From Thermanaeromonas sp. C210 (GTDB taxonomy: Bacteria; Bacillota; DSM-521; Neomoorellales; Neomoorellaceae), in assembly GCF_013167955.1 (NCBI RefSeq), contig NZ_BLWF01000002.1, forward strand, positions 351,185-415,184: a DNA stretch of 64,000 bases, in the 5' to 3' direction. A model generated the notes under the pieces. The model saw only the letters and a program-made list of their open reading frames with translations, was not told where the DNA came from and did not search any database. Positions 5,097-59,946 of this stretch are shown in pieces. The position numbers and the translations under genes are program-made. Within the stretch, counting starts at the first letter, position 1; the number at the start of each line of letters is the position of its first letter.

Positions 5097-7001
5097 CTAT
5101 TGTTGATCCTTAGGTTTTACGATTAGGAACCCTTGCATTTCCTGGTGAAGGGCCGAACAAAAGTTGGTGCAATAGAAGGGATATACGCCGGGTTTATCGG
5201 CCACAAATTCTATCTTTTCCGTCTGGCCAGGCTGGACCTCGAAATTGATGTCATACAAACAGATGGCAAAACCGTGGGTAATGTCTTCATCGAAGTCGGT
5301 GTTTGTTAGGTACCAAGTAACGTGGTCCCCTTCGTTCACTTCCACCACGTCGGGATAGTAACGACTGCGGTAAGACATCATATAGACGTTTACCCGGTTG
5401 CCATTGCGCTCTACCCTGGCGTCCTCCTTTTTGTAGACCGCACCCTCTAATTGCTCATCCTTGGGATAGACTTCGAAAGTCTTGATTTTGTCCGCCTTGA
5501 TCATTTGAGCGTAGTGGGGTTCCGGGTCCACCGGATTGTCGAAAAGGACCTTCATTTTGGGCGAGGTGAGATCGACCAGTTGCATGGACTCGGGATGAGA
5601 CGGCCCGACGGATAGGAATTTGTCCTTGGCCAGCTTGTTTAAGGCGACCAGGTACTTGCCGTCCGGAGAAACAGTATCCCCTTCGGCAGCGCACAGGTGG
5701 CCTGGGCAATAGTGGACCTGCACCTTATCCACCACTTTGAAATCCGTCAAAGACCATTTGGCCACGGCGCTTTCCACAAATAAGCTGGTATAAGCGTAGC
5801 CCTGATCATCAAATTGGGTGTGCAAGGGCCCCAGGCCTACTTCCACTTCCGCCACCCTCACCTTGTCATAGTTGACGATGGGGAAGCCGCGCTCCTCGCC
5901 CTGGAAATCCTTATTCTCGATGCACTCCATGAATTTCTCAAAGCTGAACACCGTAACCGTGGGCGACAGCTTGCCGTTGCCTATAATGTATTTCCCGTCC
6001 GGCGAAACGTCTACACCGTGGGGGCTCTTGGCGCACGGTATTAGATAAGTAGATCCCGGAACATCGCGGGGATCGATAACCTTGGCCCCGCCGATCTCCT
6101 TGTATTTACCTTCCTGGACAGCCTTTTCTAGCATCTTCCAGTTCATAGCTACGATATAGTCCCTCTCCCGCTGGGAGGCATTAACCTCCAGCAGGGTATA
6201 CGCTTCTTCCGTGTTATAGCTGGTAAGGAACATCCAGCCATCGCTGACCAATTTTCCGGCATCCGAGAGGTCGTAAGACCAGGGCGGCAATAAAGCCTCC
6301 CAGGCCAAGCTCATGTTCCCGTTCTCGGGATCGATGGCAATGGCCGCCAGCACGCAGTAATATTCGTCCTTAAATTTTTCAATAGGGGCATACTTGCCAA
6401 AGGGGATGGGCCCGGCGAAGCGGGACGCCATCATGAAATACTCGCTATTGGGGGTAAGGAAGACGGCACCGTGGGGGCCGTAAATATTGGGGATGGGCCC
6501 CAATATCTGCTTGGTGGTAAAGGAATCCAGGTCTATACGGGCCACCCGGCTGTTGGCGTTATCGTTGACGAACAGCCAGCGACCATCGTATTCCCCGTTC
6601 GTCTCGCTTAAGGCCGGGTGATGGACGTCTCCCCAGGTAAAATTACCCAGCATTTCCTTGGTCTCTGCCGTCCAGCCGTAACCCACCGACGATTCTTTGG
6701 TGAAGACCGGAATAGTCCTGATCCTCCGCATGGAAGGTACGCCGTACACAAATACGTTTCCAGAATGCCCGCCCGAGGCAAAAAGGTAATATTCATCCAG
6801 TTTGCCGGGCGGTACATAAGTTTTTAGGGCCGCCTCCACAACTTCATCGGCTACACCCGTATTAGAGGCTGAAAAGTTGAAAGAGGCCCCTTCCTGGCTC
6901 GCCGAAGGGTTCACCCGGCCGGTAATGAATACAGCCAGTACCAAGCCTACCAGGAGGCCCGCTAGGGCTAAGACAATCTTACTAAAGGACCTCTTTTCCA
7001 T
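5097..7001 (-). CDS. nosZ: NosZ: nitrous oxide reductase, clade II (Sec-type)
   Basis: A 634-residue enzyme reducing N2O to N2 outside the membrane. The N-terminus has one hydrophobic segment (residues 9-27) and no twin-arginine motif, which marks clade II. A seven-bladed propeller carries the CuZ ligands, for example GDVHH (H127, H128), GPHG and SPHG. The C-terminal cupredoxin domain carries CuA ligands H576, C611, C615, H619 and M622 in YCTNFCSALHQEM. All key residues are present, so the enzyme should be active. In a Gram-positive cell the N-terminal segment may remain as a membrane anchor. Confidence 0.98.
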   Translation of the reverse strand: MEKRSFSKIVLALAGLLVGLVLAVFITGRVNPSASQEGASFNFSASNTGVADEVVEAALKTYVPPGKLDEYYLFASGGHSGNVFVYGVPSMRRIRTIPVFTKESSVGYGWTAETKEMLGNFTWGDVHHPALSETNGEYDGRWLFVNDNANSRVARIDLDSFTTKQILGPIPNIYGPHGAVFLTPNSEYFMMASRFAGPIPFGKYAPIEKFKDEYYCVLAAIAIDPENGNMSLAWEALLPPWSYDLSDAGKLVSDGWMFLTSYNTEEAYTLLEVNASQRERDYIVAMNWKMLEKAVQEGKYKEIGGAKVIDPRDVPGSTYLIPCAKSPHGVDVSPDGKYIIGNGKLSPTVTVFSFEKFMECIENKDFQGEERGFPIVNYDKVRVAEVEVGLGPLHTQFDDQGYAYTSLFVESAVAKWSLTDFKVVDKVQVHYCPGHLCAAEGDTVSPDGKYLVALNKLAKDKFLSVGPSHPESMQLVDLTSPKMKVLFDNPVDPEPHYAQMIKADKIKTFEVYPKDEQLEGAVYKKEDARVERNGNRVNVYMMSYRSRYYPDVVEVNEGDHVTWYLTNTDFDEDITHGFAICLYDINFEVQPGQTEKIEFVADKPGVYPFYCTNFCSALHQEMQGFLIVKPKDQQ

Positions 7002-7039
7002 ATGCTTACTATCCTCCTTCCGTCACCCGCTACCTAGAA

Positions 7040-7579
7040 TCACGGGTTCGTTTCTTGCTCCTGAGTCGGGGCTGGCGCGCCCTCGTCTGGCCCTCCCTCG
7101 GCTACCCTAGTCAGCAGCTCCAGGATTATCGTCTTTTCTTCATCGGTAATCTCCCTCCCTCGTAAAATTTCGGCCATAGTACCCTCGGGGTTCCACAGGA
7201 ACTCTTCCAGGGTCTTACCATAGCGAGCCGGGACATTGTGATAGGCGTTGGAAAGGTCGGGTCCCGTCTCGCCGCCCTTCACGTTATAAGCACTCACTTT
7301 GTGGCACTGGATGCAGCCCAGGGTGGTGAAAATTTCCGCTTCCTTTTGCTCACCGGTAGCGGCTGTGCTCTCCCCGGCCTCGCTTTCGGGGGTTCCCTTA
7401 TCTCCTGATGCAGCTTGCTCCTCTACATTTAAGCCAGCATTATAAACCGTAGATGCTGTTTGGGCCACCTCCGGGAAATACCTGGGCGCCGCCGCCACAC
7501 TGGCGGTAAGGCCCCCTAGGAAACCTATTCCCGCCCACATCAAGAACAGCAGGATCCCCCCCTTACCCTTTGCCTCCAC
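7040..7579 (-). CDS. Membrane-anchored monohaem cytochrome c of the nos operon
   Basis: About 179 residues with an N-terminal membrane anchor, a low-complexity acidic linker and a single CIQCH haem-binding motif near residue 91. A methionine in GTMAEIL is a possible distal ligand. It lies between the cytochrome b/Rieske genes and nosZ, so the natural inference is electron transfer from the quinol-oxidising complex to the CuA site of NosZ, like NosC-type cytochromes. Confidence 0.85.
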   Translation of the reverse strand: MEAKGKGGILLFLMWAGIGFLGGLTASVAAAPRYFPEVAQTASTVYNAGLNVEEQAASGDKGTPESEAGESTAATGEQKEAEIFTTLGCIQCHKVSAYNVKGGETGPDLSNAYHNVPARYGKTLEEFLWNPEGTMAEILRGREITDEEKTIILELLTRVAEGGPDEGAPAPTQEQETNP

Positions 7580-7620
7580 GGGGATATACCTCCTTTGTTC
7601 GAGTGCTGGCCATCACCCTG

Positions 7621-8016
7621 CTATCTGAGCCCCACATAGGTTAGGACCACCAGGCCGATGAGGACTAGCAGGGTACCTATGATGACTTTAGGCCTTTCTT
7701 CCGGTCGCCGGTGAGGGCTCCTGTCCAGCCAGGGCAGCAGGAACAGGGCCAGGAATACCAGGGCGGAGATCGCCAGTCCTAAAAGCTGCGGGACAACTTT
7801 GAGAAGGCCGTATACCCATAAAAAGTACCACTCGGGCTTGATATGGGCAGGCGTCATTATAGGATTGGCCGGGGGCCTCAGTTCACGGGGCGCTATACCG
7901 GCCAGGAACAAAACTAGACCGATAAAACCCAGGGCTAAGGCGAGTTCTGCCATAAAATGGTGTGGGTAGAAAGGGATACTCCCCTTGGGGGCTCGCTGTT
8001 CCATTTGTTGTTCCAT
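7621..8016 (-). CDS. Cytochrome b subunit IV-like protein (PetD/QcrC-type)
   Basis: A 131-residue membrane protein with three spans and the quinol-site motif PEWYF in KPEWYFLWVYGLL. It is the C-terminal half of a split cytochrome b, as in b6f and Firmicute b6c complexes. Together with the cytochrome b6 gene 12 nt upstream and the Rieske gene it forms a menaquinol:cytochrome c reductase. Confidence 0.92.
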   Translation of the reverse strand: MEQQMEQRAPKGSIPFYPHHFMAELALALGFIGLVLFLAGIAPRELRPPANPIMTPAHIKPEWYFLWVYGLLKVVPQLLGLAISALVFLALFLLPWLDRSPHRRPEERPKVIIGTLLVLIGLVVLTYVGLR

Positions 8017-33211: not shown

Positions 33212-33232
33212 GGTGTATCTGGTAGATATACC
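33212..33232. repeat. Small palindrome beside the poly-C tract
   Basis: GGTGTATCT-GGT-AGATATACC forms a nine-pair stem (one G-T pair), ending at the first C residues of the homopolymer. Possible operator or short hairpin. Confidence 0.4.
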
Positions 33233-33244
33233 CCCCCCCCCCCC
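33231..33244. repeat. Homopolymer of 14 C residues
   Basis: An uninterrupted C14 run upstream of the partner-switch operon. Such runs are prone to length change by slippage. Confidence 0.9.
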
Positions 33245-33927
33245 ATTATGGTGGTTTATGTTATTTCTTACGATTATTGTCATCCCTTTCGGCTTTTCTA
33301 TCGCCACTCGCCGCACCCCTTTATAAAAAAATAGGTGACCTGGATAGACGGTCACCTCGCCATCCCCCACGGCAGCCTGGCAACCATAGCCTACCCCGGC
33401 CTTAGGCCCACGGCTTTGCGTCCCGCCCTTTCGAGCGGTTTGCCCTTTGCGTGAAGGCAATATAAGAAATTGCCCTTTTCAACCGTTGTCGGAATACAAC
33501 CTTAATCTTGATTATCCCACGACCGCCTCCCCTGTCGCAACTTCGATTATCTAGTGTATGGGAGGCCTGGCGGCTGATTTCTGCATATTTTCCAGTCCAT
33601 GCCCGGTGTATTTACCTTCTGGCGGATTTTGTCGTTTACTGTCGAACTTTCGGGGTGATTCTTACCCTTTTAATCCAGAGGTGGAGGCCCCTAGCCTTAA
33701 GCCTTGGAGGCCCACAAAAGGCATCCGGGAAGTAGAAGCTTTAACGCTTTCGCCACCACCGGCAGGGTTACTATAGAGAGCCGAAAGGAAAACATACTCC
33801 CCCATATAGCCCACCTTGGCCTGATCCTCGATTAGTCGAGGCGAGATCCATCGCTGCCACGGCCTCCACCATTGCCGCCAGCCCGAGGTAGCAGTAAACA
33901 CGCACCGCGCCCTGCCGCCGCGTCCCC

Positions 33928-38110: not shown

Positions 38111-38257
38111 GAAACACCAAACTTCTTTTCCCGTCTCGGTCCCGAAGGAGGATCCAAGCGGAGGGATGTTGGCGGGCTATAAGCCCTTGTAAAATTTCGC
38201 GCAGTGCGAACCCCCAAGGTATCGCCTGCATGGTTAGTTTACCATATTCAAGGGAGA

Positions 38258-43586: not shown

Positions 43587-44489
43587 TCAGGCCACGATTT
43601 CCTGAATAAGTATCGACGGGTGGACCAGAAGCCGGATAATCTCCCCCGACCTTTCCTCGGGCCGGAGCACTTCGACGATGGGTCTTAAGGGAACCGCCGG
43701 TTCCTGGGCCACCACCCTGGCTATTTCTCCGCTGGTCAGGCGAACAATGGTGCCCACCGGGTAGCTGGCAATTTCCTGCAGGAAGATTTTGACCAGTTCT
43801 AAATCCAAGGTGCCCCGGGTGCTCTCCACCATCAAAAGCTCCATCCCTTCATGGGGCAAAAGCTTGGGCCGGTAACACCGGTCGGTAGTCACCGCATCGT
43901 AAACATCGGCAATGGCCACACAGCGGGCCGCCAGGGTGATTTCTTCCTTTACCAGACCCCGGGGGTAACCACTCCCGTCACACCGCTCGTGGTGATCCCT
44001 CACTACTAGCCTTACTTCCTCACTTACCAGCCCCTCCAGGCGCCGGTAGCCTGCCTCCGGATGGCCCTTGACCACCTCGAACTCTTCAGGAGTGAGCCTT
44101 CCGGGCTTGCCGATAATCTCGCTGGGTATTTCTAACTTTCCGATATCGTGGAGCATAGCTCCTACGCCCAATACCATCAATTCCTCTTCGGGAAGCTTGA
44201 GACGAGAACCGAGATAGGTGGCCAGCAGAGTCACATTAAGGGAATGCCTGGCGGAATAGGGGTCCACATCCTTTAACATGGCCATCTGCAGGAAGACGTC
44301 CTGCTTCTCCCGCATGCGGCCGATGAACTCCGCCACGGCCTCCCTTACATCTTCCACCGCCAGGCGGTTGCTGCCCAAGCGGCAGCTCCGGTAGAGGTCG
44401 TGGAGGACTGCCTGGGCTTCCAGGTACACTTGCTTAGCCGGACCTTCATCCAGGAGCATGAGCTCCTCAACTTCAGGTGCCTGCCCCAT
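43587..44489 (-). CDS. HD-GYP domain protein (c-di-GMP phosphodiesterase)
   Basis: A 300-residue protein with a short N-terminal region and a full HD-GYP domain: HDIGKLEIP, HPEAGY, HHERCDGSGYPRGL. It should hydrolyse c-di-GMP. A sigma-H-like promoter lies 50 nt upstream. Confidence 0.93.
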   Translation of the reverse strand: MGQAPEVEELMLLDEGPAKQVYLEAQAVLHDLYRSCRLGSNRLAVEDVREAVAEFIGRMREKQDVFLQMAMLKDVDPYSARHSLNVTLLATYLGSRLKLPEEELMVLGVGAMLHDIGKLEIPSEIIGKPGRLTPEEFEVVKGHPEAGYRRLEGLVSEEVRLVVRDHHERCDGSGYPRGLVKEEITLAARCVAIADVYDAVTTDRCYRPKLLPHEGMELLMVESTRGTLDLELVKIFLQEIASYPVGTIVRLTSGEIARVVAQEPAVPLRPIVEVLRPEERSGEIIRLLVHPSILIQEIVA

Positions 44490-45868: not shown

Positions 45869-46221
45869 CCCAGGACCTTGACAAGAAGTCTGTATGCCTC
45901 CGGGTCCCACCAGCCCTTGTCCACCTCTTCCCCTATTATGGCCAGGGCGCGTTCCCGCGGCAGGGCCGGACGGTAGGGACGGTCGCTGGTCAGGGCATCG
46001 TAGACATCCGCCACACTCAAAATCCGGGCAAAAAAGGGGATGTCCGCCGCCTTTTTTCCGGCCGGGTAACCGCTGCCGTCCAGGCGCTCGTGGTGATTGC
46101 CCACCAGGGGCACCGGCGGCTTCGTGCGGTCCATCTGGCTGAGGATGCAGGCCCCGACCTCCGGGTGCTGGCAGATGACCTGTCGTTCCTGGGGAGTGAG
46201 GGGGCCGGGCTTATTAAGGCA
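45862..46221 (-). pseudogene. HD-GYP domain remnant (C-terminal part of a broken sensor)
   Basis: The frame reads KPGPLTPQERQVICQHPEVG, then GNHHERLDGSGYPAG and ARILSVADVYDALTSDRPYR, the second half of an HD-GYP domain. The first half with the catalytic HD pair is absent. It abuts, in another frame, the PAS domain that ends at 46214, showing that a deletion joined PAS to mid-HD-GYP and shifted the frame. Confidence 0.8.
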
Positions 46222-55199: not shown

Positions 55200-56041
55200 T
55201 CCGGGCCGAGAACTTGAGTTTCACTTATCCTAACGGCCTGCAAGCCCTAAAGGATGTTTCTTTTTATATAAAGAAGGGGGAGTTCGTAGCCTTAATTGGC
55301 CGCAACGGCTCCGGGAAAACCACCTTGCTGAAGCACCTTAACGGCCTCCTCAAGCCCACAGGAGGCCGCCTCTTCATCGCCGGTCTGGACACCGCCCGGG
55401 CCAGAACGTCCGAGCTGGCCCGCAAAGTAGGTTTTTTGTTCCAGAATCCCGACCACCAGATTTTCCTGCCCACGGTAGCCCAGGAAATTGCCTTTGGTCC
55501 CAGGAATTTGGGCCTTAAGGGCCGGGAGATTGAGGAGCGGGTGGCCGAGGCCGCTGCCCAGGTGGGTTTAACGGACTACCTGGGCGCCAACCCCTGGAGG
55601 CTCGGTAAGGGGCTGCGCCAGAGGGTGGCCCTGGCCTCCGTCCTGGCCATGCGGCCCGAGATCCTGGTCTTGGACGAACCCACCACGGGTCAAGATTACC
55701 GCCAGGCTCGGGAAATAATGGCCATAATAAAGGAGTTGCACCGGAGAGGGCATACCATAATACTGGTAACCCACGACATGGAGATGGTAGTACGATATGC
55801 CGAAAAGGCCTTCGTCCTGGGCGAGGGAAGGCTGTTACTGGAGGGGTCCTTGACCGAGGTCTTCTCCCGGGATGACATCCTGGCCGCGGCCGGCCTTCTC
55901 CCCCCTGCTATAGTAAGACTGATCAGCCCTTACCGGACAGCCGGGCTGTTCCCCAACGTGCTCACACCGGAGGATCTCTTCCGGGAAGTCTGTCTTATGT
56001 TAAGGGGTGAGGACCATGCCGTCCGCATCCTTCCTGCATGA
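55196..56041 (+). CDS. EcfA: energy-coupling factor ATPase (second)
   Basis: A 281-residue ATPase with Walker A GRNGSGKTT and Walker B ILVLDEPTTGQD. The signature is LGKGLRQRVALASVLAM, with LGKG in place of LSGG, so one of the two composite ATP sites may be degenerate. It overlaps the EcfT start. Confidence 0.95.
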   Translation: MIRAENLSFTYPNGLQALKDVSFYIKKGEFVALIGRNGSGKTTLLKHLNGLLKPTGGRLFIAGLDTARARTSELARKVGFLFQNPDHQIFLPTVAQEIAFGPRNLGLKGREIEERVAEAAAQVGLTDYLGANPWRLGKGLRQRVALASVLAMRPEILVLDEPTTGQDYRQAREIMAIIKELHRRGHTIILVTHDMEMVVRYAEKAFVLGEGRLLLEGSLTEVFSRDDILAAAGLLPPAIVRLISPYRTAGLFPNVLTPEDLFREVCLMLRGEDHAVRILPA

Positions 56042-56762
56042 TCTCCATCCTCTAACCAAGGTGGTCTGGTCCCTGGCCGTGGTGACTGCCGCCTTCTTTC
56101 TCCGGGGGCCCCTCCCCCTGCTCCTTCTGTTAGCCTCGGTCCTGGCCGTGGCCGGGGCCGGGAAGGTGCTCCGGCAGGTATGGCCGGCCCTCAAGGGGCT
56201 GGCCTTCCTGGCCGCCCTTTTCTTCCTCTTCCAGGTCTTCTTAATTCAAGAAGGCAACACGGTCCTCACCCTCTTCCCCGGCAGAGGGTTCGGCCGGGTG
56301 ACCGATGTGGGCCTTTACGCATGCACCGTGCTGGCCCTTAGAATGCTGGTCATGACTTCTACCATTCCGGTGCTCCTGGCCACCACCAACCCCAAAGATA
56401 TGGTGGTGGCCTTTGTAGAAAAGTTGAAGGTGCCGTATCTTTACGCCTTCATGCTGGTTACTTCTTTGCGCTTCATCCCGGTCCTTCAGGAGCAACTGGA
56501 TCTCGTCCTCCAAGCCCAGCGGGCCCGGGGCCGCGACCTGGAGGGGCGCAATTTTATCAAGAGGCTCAAAGCCGTAGTCCCCGTGGCCCTTCCCCTGCTC
56601 CTCGTCTCCATCCGGCGGTCCCGAACCCTGGCCATCTCCCTGGAAACCCGGGGCTTCGGTACCGGACCGCGCACTCACCTGCGTTCCATGGCCTTCCGGC
56701 CGGCCGATATAGCGGTTATGGCCTCCTGCACCTTGCTCACCTTCCTTGTGATTGTCCTGTAA
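56016..56762 (+). CDS. EcfT: energy-coupling factor transmembrane protein
   Basis: About 248 residues with five to six membrane spans and the EcfT coupling motifs with the A-R-G pattern (RARGRDLEGRN, SLETRGFG). It joins the ATPases to the S component. The ATG at 56016 is preferred over a GTG nine bases upstream. It closes the operon before a terminator. Confidence 0.94.
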   Translation: MPSASFLHDLHPLTKVVWSLAVVTAAFFLRGPLPLLLLLASVLAVAGAGKVLRQVWPALKGLAFLAALFFLFQVFLIQEGNTVLTLFPGRGFGRVTDVGLYACTVLALRMLVMTSTIPVLLATTNPKDMVVAFVEKLKVPYLYAFMLVTSLRFIPVLQEQLDLVLQAQRARGRDLEGRNFIKRLKAVVPVALPLLLVSIRRSRTLAISLETRGFGTGPRTHLRSMAFRPADIAVMASCTLLTFLVIVL

Positions 56763-56770
56763 GCTCTTTA

Positions 56771-56805
56771 GGACGCCGTCGACCTGACGGCGTCCGGTAT
56801 TTTCA
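56771..56805 (+). terminator. Terminator of the trpP-ECF operon
   Basis: A perfect 10-bp stem GGACGCCGTC / GACGGCGTCC (5-nt loop), then GGTATTTTC; the U-tract is short. Confidence 0.7.
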
Positions 56806-56861: not shown

Positions 56862-56889
56862 GCAGGAGAAAACCTGTCTGCGTCGAATT
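56862..56889 (+). promoter_or_regulatory. Sigma-H-like promoter of the agr-like operon
   Basis: GCAGGA and CGAAT with AGGA-to-GAAT spacing of 21 bp, about 60 nt before the first gene, suggests expression in the stationary/sporulation transition. Confidence 0.55.
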
Positions 56890-56948
56890 GAACTTCTAAG
56901 TAAGTAAGAAAACAGCAGAAATAACCAGCAATCCAGGTAACTATCTAA

Positions 56949-57419
56949 ATGGTTCGGGAAACCTTCCCCGGTCTTTTGTATGCCCTGCTCCTCCAAGACT
57001 TGCCCGAAAGCATGCTCATGGCTATGGTGGTGTTCAGCCTCCTAAATTTACGTATCTGGGACAGGAGGGTCGTGTTGGTCGGCCTCCTGCAGACCCTTAC
57101 CAATCTGGTGCGCCTTCTACCCATTGCCTTCGGCATGCACTCGGTCATTCTCATTATTTCTATATCTATCTATACTCGGCTCTTCACCCGGGCCCAGTTG
57201 AGCAAGACCTTCCTCTCCGCTTTAGTTTGTTTCGCCCTGCTCGGTGTCACTGAGCTGATATATGTCAGGCCTCTTTTGAGCTTTACGGGACTGCAGTATG
57301 AAGAGGTATTTGCCGATCCTTTCTTAAGGGCGGCCTTCGCCCTTCCGGACATGATGGTCCTCCTGGCCGTGGCCCTGGGCAAGGACTATTACAACCGCAA
57401 GAGGGGATTGGTATGCTGA
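56949..57419 (+). CDS. Integral membrane protein of the agr-like operon
   Basis: A 156-residue protein with about five membrane spans and no kinase domain. It resembles the membrane sensor half of an AgrC receptor in topology, but that is a topology-level comparison only. It overlaps the agrB start by seven bases, so expression is coupled. It may bind or export the peptide. Confidence 0.7.
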   Translation: MVRETFPGLLYALLLQDLPESMLMAMVVFSLLNLRIWDRRVVLVGLLQTLTNLVRLLPIAFGMHSVILIISISIYTRLFTRAQLSKTFLSALVCFALLGVTELIYVRPLLSFTGLQYEEVFADPFLRAAFALPDMMVLLAVALGKDYYNRKRGLVC

Positions 57420-58024
57420 AGTTAAACATTGCGCGGCCGGCCGCAGCTTATCTCAGAGAAAAGCTCCAGCTAACCCCGGAGCAAGAGGAAATCGCCCTTT
57501 ACGGCCTGCAAACCATCCTTTATCCCCTTACCGGCCTCCTGGCTATCGTGCTGGTGGGCCGCCTCCTGGGCTGCTTACCGGCCACCCTGGCGGCCACCTT
57601 CAGCGCCGGTTTTCTGCGGCTGTGGTCCGGCGGTGCCCACACCCGCTCCCCCCTCACCTGTACCCTGGTAGGTATGGCCCTTTTCCCCCTCCTAGGTAAA
57701 ATAGCCGACGCGGCGGCGCCCGGCATGGGGGCCTCCGGCCTGCTTCTCGTCCTGGCGGCTGTTTCGGCAGTGTGCCTGCCCACCGTTGTCCGGATGGCGC
57801 CGGTGGATTCCCCGGCCAAACCCATCCTCTCGGCGGATTACCGCCGCAACCTGCGCCGCCTGTCGGTAGCAGCCGTCATCCTTATCACCGCTGCTCAGGT
57901 TGCCCTCTTAAAAGCCGGCGCTTACAACCTGGTGCTGGCCCTGAGTCTGGGTCTAGGGTGGCAAACCTTTTCGTTGACAAGGGCGGGTCACAGGTTTGCC
58001 GCTTTCGTAGACAAACTGAGTTAA
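57413..58024 (+). CDS. agrB: AgrB-family peptide-processing membrane protease
   Basis: A 203-residue membrane protein with the catalytic pair of AgrB in GGAHTRSPLTC (His near 75, Cys near 82). AgrB cuts the AgrD precursor and forms the thiolactone of the autoinducing peptide. It is followed 20 nt later by agrD. Confidence 0.93.
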   Translation: MLKLNIARPAAAYLREKLQLTPEQEEIALYGLQTILYPLTGLLAIVLVGRLLGCLPATLAATFSAGFLRLWSGGAHTRSPLTCTLVGMALFPLLGKIADAAAPGMGASGLLLVLAAVSAVCLPTVVRMAPVDSPAKPILSADYRRNLRRLSVAAVILITAAQVALLKAGAYNLVLALSLGLGWQTFSLTRAGHRFAAFVDKLS

Positions 58025-58044
58025 TCATCAGGGAGGTAGAGAGG

Positions 58045-58176
58045 ATGAAGAAGTTATTCTATCGCCTGCTGCCGGTTGCCTTCAGCTTGCTGGCCTTTGC
58101 CGCAGCCGTCGGGGTCAAGCCAACCTGTGCTTTGCTCTGGCACCAACCCGAAGTACCCAAGTCCCTGCTCAAGTAA
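58045..58176 (+). CDS. agrD: AgrD-like cyclic peptide autoinducer precursor (43 aa)
   Basis: A short gene with a GGGAGG/GAGGAG ribosome site. The N-terminal amphipathic helix (1-23) anchors it to the membrane; the core is PTCALLW and the tail HQPEVPKSLLK is the AgrB recognition motif of clostridial AgrD proteins. The predicted thiolactone ring is Cys28 to Trp32, five residues. The mature peptide start is uncertain. It was missed by simple length cut-offs because it lies inside a longer frame. Confidence 0.9.
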   Translation: MKKLFYRLLPVAFSLLAFAAAVGVKPTCALLWHQPEVPKSLLK

Positions 58177-58185
58177 CGCCCCGGT

Positions 58186-58216
58186 GGGCGCGGGGAACCC
58201 GCCCTTCCCCGCGCCC
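58186..58216 (+). promoter_or_regulatory. Strong hairpin between agrD and the GGDEF/HD-GYP gene
   Basis: A perfect 10-bp stem GGGCGCGGGG / CCCCGCGCCC without a U-tract, directly after the agrD stop. It may protect the agrD message or reduce readthrough into the next gene. Confidence 0.5.
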
Positions 58217-58284
58217 CGGTGAAGCGCGAACGGTCAGAGGAGGAGAAATTGAGGCCTCCATTTCGAGGGACGGGAGAACTCTAG

Positions 58285-59946
58285 ATGCGCAAATGGGAAG
58301 AGAAAAGAGCTGAAGAAATATCCGAGTACATTTTGGTCACCCATATTGTAAGCCTCTTGCTTGTCTTGATGATTATTTTTAGCTTTTATAACCTGCCTCT
58401 AGGCCTGCATTTCTCCGTTTACGCGGTCGCCGTGTTTAGCGCCTCCGTGATAGGTATAATTGTATATGTCTCGCGCAAGCTCCTCCCCAGAGTATCCTTC
58501 CTAGGCCACCCCCATAGGGACGAAATCTTACTCCTCACCATCATTTTCCCTGTAACCTTTGCCTTCCTTTGGTACAGCCGCAATTTCTTCGGCGCCAAGG
58601 TCCTGGTCCTCGTCCCTATCGTTATCACTGCCACCAGCTTCGGAAAGGTTGCCGGCACGGCAGCAGCTGCCGTGGCCTCCGCCCTCCTCTTTTTCCTGGA
58701 TTACCGAGTTTACGGCTCCTTGCCCGCCGCAGTCTTCCAAGCTGACAGTATTTTGACCGGGGTGGTAGTTCTCCTGGCCTGGCTGGTGGGCGGCTTGATG
58801 GAAGTGGAGAGGCAAACTCAGCAAGAGCTGCTGCGCCTGGCCGACTACGATCAACTCACCGGACTGTACAACCACCGCTATCTACAGGAAAATCTGGGCG
58901 GGAAGATACGGGAAGCGGCCAGCAGTAACCTTCCTCTCTCGTTAATATTGCTGGACATCGACCAGTTCAAGTATTTCAACACCGTTTACGGCTATCCCAA
59001 GGGAGACCAGCTCCTGGCCGCCCTGGGCCGGCTGCTGCAGGAAGAGGTAAAGGAGCCATCCTGTGCTGCCCGCTACGGCAGCGACGAATTCGCCCTGGTC
59101 CTGCCCGGCAGAGGCAAGGGCCAGGCGGCGGAGACCGCCTGCCGCCTAAAGGTAAGACTCATGGAGGAGGCTACCAGAACCCTGGCGGGCGGGGAGGGGA
59201 AGCCGCCCTTTAAACCCTTTACCCTCTCGGTCGGTTTGGCCACTTACCCTGCCGACGGTAACGATGCCCTGTCCCTCATCCGGGCGGCGGAAAACGACCT
59301 GTTCAGGGCCAAGTACTCCCGGGACAAAAACTACCTGTACCATTCTATTATCAGCGAGATCAGTGCCATGAAAGTGAAAGAAGCCTTCCCTACCTTGCAG
59401 GTCCTGGTGGCCCTGATTAATATTAAAGACCGCTACACCTTTGGCCACTCGGAAAGGGTTATGTCCTACGCCCTGGCTGTGGCGGAAAAGTTGCCCCTTT
59501 CCGGGGAGGAAAAGGAGACCCTGCGTTACGGTGCTTACTTACACGACCTGGGCAAAATTGAAGTGGACAGCGCCATCCTCACCAAGAAGGGCCCCCTGAG
59601 CCCGGAAGAACGGGAGGCCATGCAAAACCACACCGTATGGGGAGCAGAAATGGTGAAACCTTTAGTATTTTTCCAGGAAATATCACAGATCTTGCGTTTC
59701 CACCATGAGAACTACGACGGCTCCGGCTATCCCGATGGTTTGCGGGGAGAAGAAATCCCCCTTCTGGCCCGCATTGTGCGCCTGGCCGACAGCTTCGATG
59801 CTATGACCACCGACCGGCCCTACCGCCAAGCCCTGTCCCTGGAAGAAGCCAGCCGGGAATTGCTGAGGCACAGCGGAACTTACTACGATCCCGCGCTAAT
59901 TCCCCCCTTTCTGGAAGCAGTAAAAGAAGTGTACGGCGAGGGGTAG
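58285..59946 (+). CDS. Membrane GGDEF plus HD-GYP c-di-GMP turnover protein
   Basis: A 553-residue protein with about five membrane spans (20-175), a GGDEF domain (YDQLTGLYNHRY; active-site loop YGSDEF, a GSDEF variant, residues about 264-268) and a complete HD-GYP domain (LHDLGKIEV near 420; HHENYDGSGYPDG). No RxxD inhibitory site is visible before the active loop. It could make or break c-di-GMP. Its place right after agrD makes it a candidate receptor or target of the peptide. Confidence 0.92.
   Translation: MRKWEEKRAEEISEYILVTHIVSLLLVLMIIFSFYNLPLGLHFSVYAVAVFSASVIGIIVYVSRKLLPRVSFLGHPHRDEILLLTIIFPVTFAFLWYSRNFFGAKVLVLVPIVITATSFGKVAGTAAAAVASALLFFLDYRVYGSLPAAVFQADSILTGVVVLLAWLVGGLMEVERQTQQELLRLADYDQLTGLYNHRYLQENLGGKIREAASSNLPLSLILLDIDQFKYFNTVYGYPKGDQLLAALGRLLQEEVKEPSCAARYGSDEFALVLPGRGKGQAAETACRLKVRLMEEATRTLAGGEGKPPFKPFTLSVGLATYPADGNDALSLIRAAENDLFRAKYSRDKNYLYHSIISEISAMKVKEAFPTLQVLVALINIKDRYTFGHSERVMSYALAVAEKLPLSGEEKETLRYGAYLHDLGKIEVDSAILTKKGPLSPEEREAMQNHTVWGAEMVKPLVFFQEISQILRFHHENYDGSGYPDGLRGEEIPLLARIVRLADSFDAMTTDRPYRQALSLEEASRELLRHSGTYYDPALIPPFLEAVKEVYGEG

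Follow-up and report, generated by a model that had tools for sequence, protein, structure and literature searches.

Cyclic-peptide quorum sensing in Gram-positive bacteria is known to run through a two-component relay. The operon described here occupies positions 56862-59946 of a 64,000-nucleotide stretch of the Thermanaeromonas sp. C210 genome (contig NZ_BLWF01000002.1, positions 351,185 to 415,184; the whole stretch is termed the window) and resembles the agr systems of Staphylococcus and Clostridia in the His-x6-Cys pattern of its AgrB, in the Cys ring and conserved tail of its AgrD and in a putative sensor homologous to the N-terminus of AgrC-like kinases. It departs from those systems in that the locus has neither kinase nor LytTR regulator, the putative sensor is a separate small protein and the output would be a membrane GGDEF/HD-GYP enzyme of cyclic di-GMP (c-di-GMP) turnover. 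In C. difficile, agr affects c-di-GMP genes transcriptionally via AgrA, involving several unlinked phosphodiesterase genes (PMC3754575); quorum sensing appears tied to c-di-GMP turnover in both cases, whereas here the enzyme is encoded inside the agr operon and no regulator is. An engineered CqsS-adenylate cyclase chimera has established that a six-helix Vibrio quorum receptor can drive a cyclic-nucleotide enzyme (PMC4821796), and the present operon would likewise have a six-helix membrane domain relay a quorum signal to such an enzyme; however, the chimera is engineered and answers to another signal, while for the natural domain no significant relation emerged from sequence or structure and a separate putative sensor is its partner. 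From a thermophile, an AgrD for which no local receptor was identified has also been described (PMC5322536).

Five elements proposed in an earlier note on this DNA, namely a sigma-H-like promoter, a small membrane protein, AgrB, AgrD and a membrane GGDEF/HD-GYP protein, were all found within 56862-59946, on the + strand. The first gene (56949..57419) encodes a five-helix membrane protein of 156 amino acids from a conserved family, here called 5-span and read as a detached AgrC-type sensor domain. It is followed by the AgrB peptidase/cyclase (57413..58024; PF04647, E 1.5e-30) and by the 43-residue AgrD pro-peptide (58045..58176; TIGR04223), whose thiolactone ring is predicted as Cys28-Ala-Leu-Leu-Trp32, Cys28 and Trp32 being placed as the note had claimed. 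The last gene (58285-59946) encodes a 553-residue GGDEF/HD-GYP protein recognised through Pfam, in which a six-helix N-terminal membrane domain without a known Pfam domain (58285..58839; here called GHN) precedes a GGDEF domain (58840..59330; PF00990, E 5.9e-32) with the motif GSDEF at residue 265 and an HD-GYP domain with intact catalytic motifs (59401..59946; PF13487 (HD_5), E 6.6e-40). A domain search of the open reading frames (ORFs) of the operon found no AgrC kinase domain, and no AgrA-type LytTR regulator is present at the locus. As a search for AgrC and AgrA found neither at the locus, the operon is agr-like with a second-messenger output and stands outside the full AgrBDCA type. The absence of both had been asserted by the note, and this holds for the locus; elsewhere in the genome one AgrC-like kinase locus and one LytTR gene occur.

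We consider it quite probable that this is an agr-type peptide operon with a c-di-GMP enzyme as its output in place of the AgrC kinase and the AgrA regulator. With slightly less assurance, we think it likely that an agr class present in at least 25 families of the phylum couples its thiolactone directly to a c-di-GMP enzyme via a split receptor, made up of the detached AgrC-type sensor and a six-helix transducer, with no phosphorelay, and that in the course of evolution this family of sensors has changed between a kinase and a second messenger as its output, the Cys or Ser ring of the peptide following the output.

Conservation of the gene order was assessed by searching AgrB in 101 related genomes, which gave 88 hits, with same-strand genes within 3 kb taken as the neighbourhood. 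A GHN-GGDEF-HD-GYP gene adjoins 28 of the 88 hits (25 genomes), a 5-span gene is present in 27 of those 28 loci, and the order 5-span, AgrB, AgrD, enzyme is the rule among them; the arrangement seen in the window is no isolated case. The other hits comprise 39 loci with a separate 5-span and a SPOB/GHKL kinase, 5 with a 5-span-kinase fusion and 2 with a GHN-kinase fusion, the rest being other or none. A LytTR regulator lies near only one of the 28 c-di-GMP-enzyme loci, as against 17 of the 44 loci with 5-span and a simple kinase.

The reverse search, in which GHN was sought over 398 genomes of the phylum regardless of agr and the home family was excluded from the neighbour counts, matched GHN in 75 genomes. 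Outside the home family it yielded 41 GHN-GGDEF-HD-GYP genes from 36 genomes in 25 families, and agrB lies within 2 kb on the same strand of 37 of them. Three of the four exceptions start at a contig edge; the remaining one is accompanied by AgrD and a pair of 5-span genes, with AgrB on the opposite strand; all 38 genes away from contig edges adjoin agrB or agrD. Among the hosts are Moorella mulderi, M. stamsii, M. sulfitireducens, Thermanaeromonas sp., Ammonifex sp. and Syntrophaceticus schinkii. With only eight HD_5 matches in the window's own genome, an accidental pairing of these genes is not credible, and the gene order is far beyond chance. GHN joined to GGDEF/HD-GYP is nearly exclusive to agr loci. 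According to the earlier note, its proposal would be overturned if linkage of the GGDEF/HD-GYP gene to agrBD were not conserved; instead, the link recurs in dozens of genomes and in 25 families outside the home family.

Some cassettes deviate from the common form. Two home-family genomes carry the enzyme gene broken into two pieces: the first (G002, locus L234) keeps 5-span and AgrD but lacks AgrB, and the second (G003, locus L235) has no agr genes, which reads as joint decay of the cassette. Tandem duplicate 5-span genes stand ahead of AgrB or AgrD in L189, L212, L227 and L283. A whole cassette, comprising 5-span in shifted frames, AgrB, an AgrD with the ring CFTWF and a GHN-GGDEF-HD-GYP-like protein, is present in a sequence named as a Klebsiella pneumoniae plasmid (L305; NZ_CP061968.1, 21735-27033); this contig most likely entered that assembly as a contaminant.

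A second agr locus of the genome (C4:283290-283796; L071, about 5772-7994) encodes a 5-span paralog (32% identity to the window 5-span, E 4e-14), a two-helix SPOB/GHKL kinase as a separate gene, AgrB and a Ser-ring AgrD, followed by rlmN, and this gene order recurs in most Moorella relatives. The sole LytTR gene of the genome (C1:363681-363974) lies beside a kinase-like ORF, and no agr genes were seen near it in the 3.3 kb viewed. An agrC/agrA pair elsewhere that answers this peptide, which the note had named as a finding that would overturn its proposal, seems improbable: the one further AgrC-like locus comes with a chemically different AgrD (Ser ring), and the lone LytTR gene is unlinked to agr. 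These data bear on the idea that the operon merely co-expresses two independent functions, the peptide being sensed by the second-locus kinase or another receptor while the enzyme senses something else. Such an arrangement would draw on a SPOB/GHKL kinase with its own 5-span in the same genome, and on sequence grounds receptors elsewhere are conceivable; nevertheless, we judge it very improbable in view of the linkage across 25 families via a domain found almost only there, the separate AgrD of the second locus and the scarcity of LytTR regulators beside the c-di-GMP genes.

With regard to the enzyme itself, GHN (residues 1-185) is predicted as six helices with a predicted local distance difference test score (pLDDT) of 84 and has no Pfam match at E up to 1; its assignment as MASE or another named sensor domain was rejected, as no Pfam match was available and the Foldseek matches were not significant. 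The HD-GYP motifs of the window protein are HDLGK at 420 and HHENYDGSGYPDG at 473, and HDxGK together with HHE..GxGYP is intact in all 63 full-length relatives. The GGDEF motif reads GSDEF in the window, GSDEF, ANDEF, GGDEF or GGARF in orthologs and GGEEF in the paralogous type, which points to a partly degenerate GGDEF domain. As the HD-GYP motifs are invariant while the GGDEF motif varies, phosphodiesterase activity appears to be the common denominator, and the signal is expected to act on c-di-GMP breakdown. A protein serving mainly as a degenerate protein-contact scaffold, leaving c-di-GMP unchanged, would fit the degenerate GGDEF motif of several orthologs, yet this option is scarcely credible given the 63 intact HD-GYP motif sets, the GGDEF or GGEEF kept in many relatives and the abundance of c-di-GMP riboswitches in the genome.

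The 5-span protein returned nothing of note from Pfam or NCBIfam. Its AlphaFold2 model has five main helices (pLDDT 94), residues E20, R55 and H64 are near-invariant and G62 is near-invariant or invariant, and the positive-inside rule would place the R55-H64 loop outside the cell. A profile built from 24 members found relatives in 148 of the 398 genomes, many of them within open frames of 440-485 amino acids that are fusions to a SPOB/GHKL kinase. The fusions, as at L236-L255, are mostly beside AgrB and AgrD and often accompanied by a LytTR response regulator (LytTR by Pfam); a 461-residue example carries 5-span at 15-162 and the kinase at 177-458. Residues 16-422 of one fusion align to 5-396 of the 414 positions of the staphylococcal AgrC model NF046015, although the fused relatives, at 54-72 bits, score far below its cut-off of 500 even with most of the length aligned. 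In matches of the fused kinase to phage sequences, it is mainly the kinase portion that aligns. Given its fusion to AgrC-like kinases and the free paralog next to the kinase in the second agr locus, the best reading of 5-span is that of an AgrC-type sensor domain which occurs fused or free; this supports the note in proposing the five-span protein as a possible sensor. No solved relative of 5-span was found, a rhodopsin match (E 0.02) being taken as chance. A peptidase function, which the E, R and H residues invite, is made less likely by the kinase fusions, by retention without AgrB and by the outcome of the structure search, in which no known membrane peptidase matched.

An alternative would make 5-span a helper in AgrD export or processing, for example a leader-trimming peptidase, and leave the six-helix GHN domain alone as the receptor. 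It takes support from the near-invariant E20, R55 and H64, which could be catalytic, from a six-helix shape in GHN like that of cyclase membrane receptors and of the Vibrio quorum receptor design (PMC4821796), and from a weak GHN match to an adenylyl cyclase membrane domain. Yet 5-span forms the N-terminal domain of AgrC-like kinase fusions, it is retained beside GHN-kinases where AgrB is missing, AgrB and AgrD persist without it at some agr loci (five kinase loci), and its tree divides non-randomly by partner; we therefore regard the helper role as unlikely, though less so than the other alternatives considered.

The AgrC-type sensor reading of 5-span raises the matter of its partnership with GHN. 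Among GHN-carrying kinases, a 5-span gene is adjacent in 13 of 20 and AgrB in only 6 of 20. Over 45 non-redundant cassettes the divergence of 5-span correlates most strongly with that of GHN (rho 0.64, the highest value), ahead of the correlation between GHN and the HD-GYP domain in the same polypeptide (rho 0.49), and a partial correlation of 0.51 remains after removal of HD-GYP, all of these figures being inflated by the common descent of entire cassettes. In a tree built from 130 5-span domains, the GHN-linked label needs 3 changes against 43.5 in shuffles, which test clustering alone, while the fused and separate kinase types mix more. The co-divergence and the tree clustering are supportive of a 5-span/GHN partnership, not decisive. 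No fusion of 5-span to GHN or GGDEF was found. At L207, L210 and L231, 5-span stands beside GHN-kinase genes without AgrB; these could possibly be receivers that produce no signal themselves, or a pair sensing a different ligand.

Besides the inflation by shared ancestry, several points weigh against the favoured reading. The nearest solved folds to GHN by Foldseek, ImcA (E 0.15) and the human AC9 membrane domain (E 0.58), are not significant, and 5-span has no significant structural match among solved structures. The 5-span gene accompanies AgrBD in most locus classes and could act in export or processing instead of sensing, and the second-locus kinase could in principle answer the same peptide. 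In the open-licence papers searched, a set with few subscription papers and no preprints, no agrBD-GGDEF/HD-GYP operon was described, in keeping with the note, which knew of no described system of this kind; an earlier account may have escaped notice.

As for the predicted signal, the His76-x6-Cys83 pattern of AgrB is kept in 143 of the 145 AgrBs gathered, a spacing which is that of the known catalytic pair. AgrD scores 38.5 bits against TIGR04223, above the cut-off of 19, and its match to PF05931 is below cut-off. Among relatives the ring Cys and the [YH]QPEVP tail are conserved but the other ring residues vary, and rings differ even between close Moorella species (CSVCF, CNFFF, CVFFF); in a comparison of four close Moorella operons for specificity, no protein stood out as co-varying with the ring letters. 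At c-di-GMP loci the ring is of the Cys type in 56 of 57 called AgrDs and of the Ser type in one, with eight uncalled, some having Ser, whereas 37 of the 53 called at other agr loci have a Ser ring. The two agr systems of one cell therefore tend to differ in ring chemistry.

Taken together, the operon could work as follows. Judging by its conserved promoter, sigma-H would drive transcription at the transition to stationary phase. AgrB, given its family and intact catalytic residues, would cut and cyclise AgrD into the five-residue C-A-L-L-W thiolactone, and the exported peptide would be sensed by 5-span in complex with the six-helix GHN domain, as homology, co-occurrence and co-divergence suggest. 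The signal would then alter the HD-GYP phosphodiesterase and most likely lower c-di-GMP at high density, the sign being uncertain, while the partly degenerate GGDEF domain may be a GTP-responsive or residual synthetic module. Riboswitches, of which the genome encodes several, may read the resulting c-di-GMP. Direct peptide-to-c-di-GMP signalling, including peptide binding to 5-span/GHN and the change in c-di-GMP, is thus what we infer from sequence. If true, it would be a second output mode of Gram-positive cyclic-peptide quorum sensing and could explain how density is linked to the motile, sessile or sporulation choice in many Clostridia. The compact four-gene module lends itself to testing in a heterologous host and could be used as a peptide-controlled c-di-GMP switch, and the split receptor could offer a handle on AgrC peptide sensing, since the sensor exists as a stand-alone protein of 156 residues.

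The operon is set apart from the upstream ecfT gene (56007-56762) by a terminator-like hairpin (56771..56795, + strand; an 11-bp stem followed by TATTTT) that closes the ecfT operon. The sigma-H-like promoter, GCAGGAGAA-N11-GTCGAATTG (56862..56890, + strand), is the single match in the window to GCAGGARAA-N11-GTCGAATWR at 0-1 mismatch. Of nine orthologous operons tested, most carry such a box at -54 to -74, with unrelated spacer letters; in L051 the only one is weaker and lies at -194, and none was found in L069. The box is also present at about -50 in all four paralogous-type loci, where spacers differ, and in several Moorella genomes a sigma-H-like box stands ahead of kinase-type agr loci. 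The genome encodes SigH (TIGR02859, 374 bits against a cut-off of 295).

A G+C-rich hairpin (58186..58216, + strand) lies in the gap between agrD and the c-di-GMP enzyme gene and is found in the same place in nearly all of the twelve loci folded. Its loop CCCGCCC is kept in most orthologs with the stem letters changing, and a T-run follows on the 3' side in several relatives. In the window itself the hairpin energy is no lower than that of shuffled sequences, owing to the high G+C content there. The hairpin may be an attenuator, by which more AgrBD than enzyme would be made.

Seven c-di-GMP-I riboswitches are encoded in the genome and are possible outputs of the operon. The one in the window (33368-33454, - strand, 84.7 bits) is followed by a T-rich stretch and lies upstream of an ORF with a HATPase domain, before which a G run is found around 33231-33241; further ORFs nearby include a STAS-like and a phosphatase-like one (both by eye) and one of 603 amino acids. 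A pan motif RNA (RF01749) is present in the window at 38127-38228 (- strand, 39.8 bits). Two more HD-GYP matches lie on the - strand of the window, at about 43815-44288 (C2:394999) and about 45898-46215 (C2:397082), the latter in a short frame of 119 amino acids.

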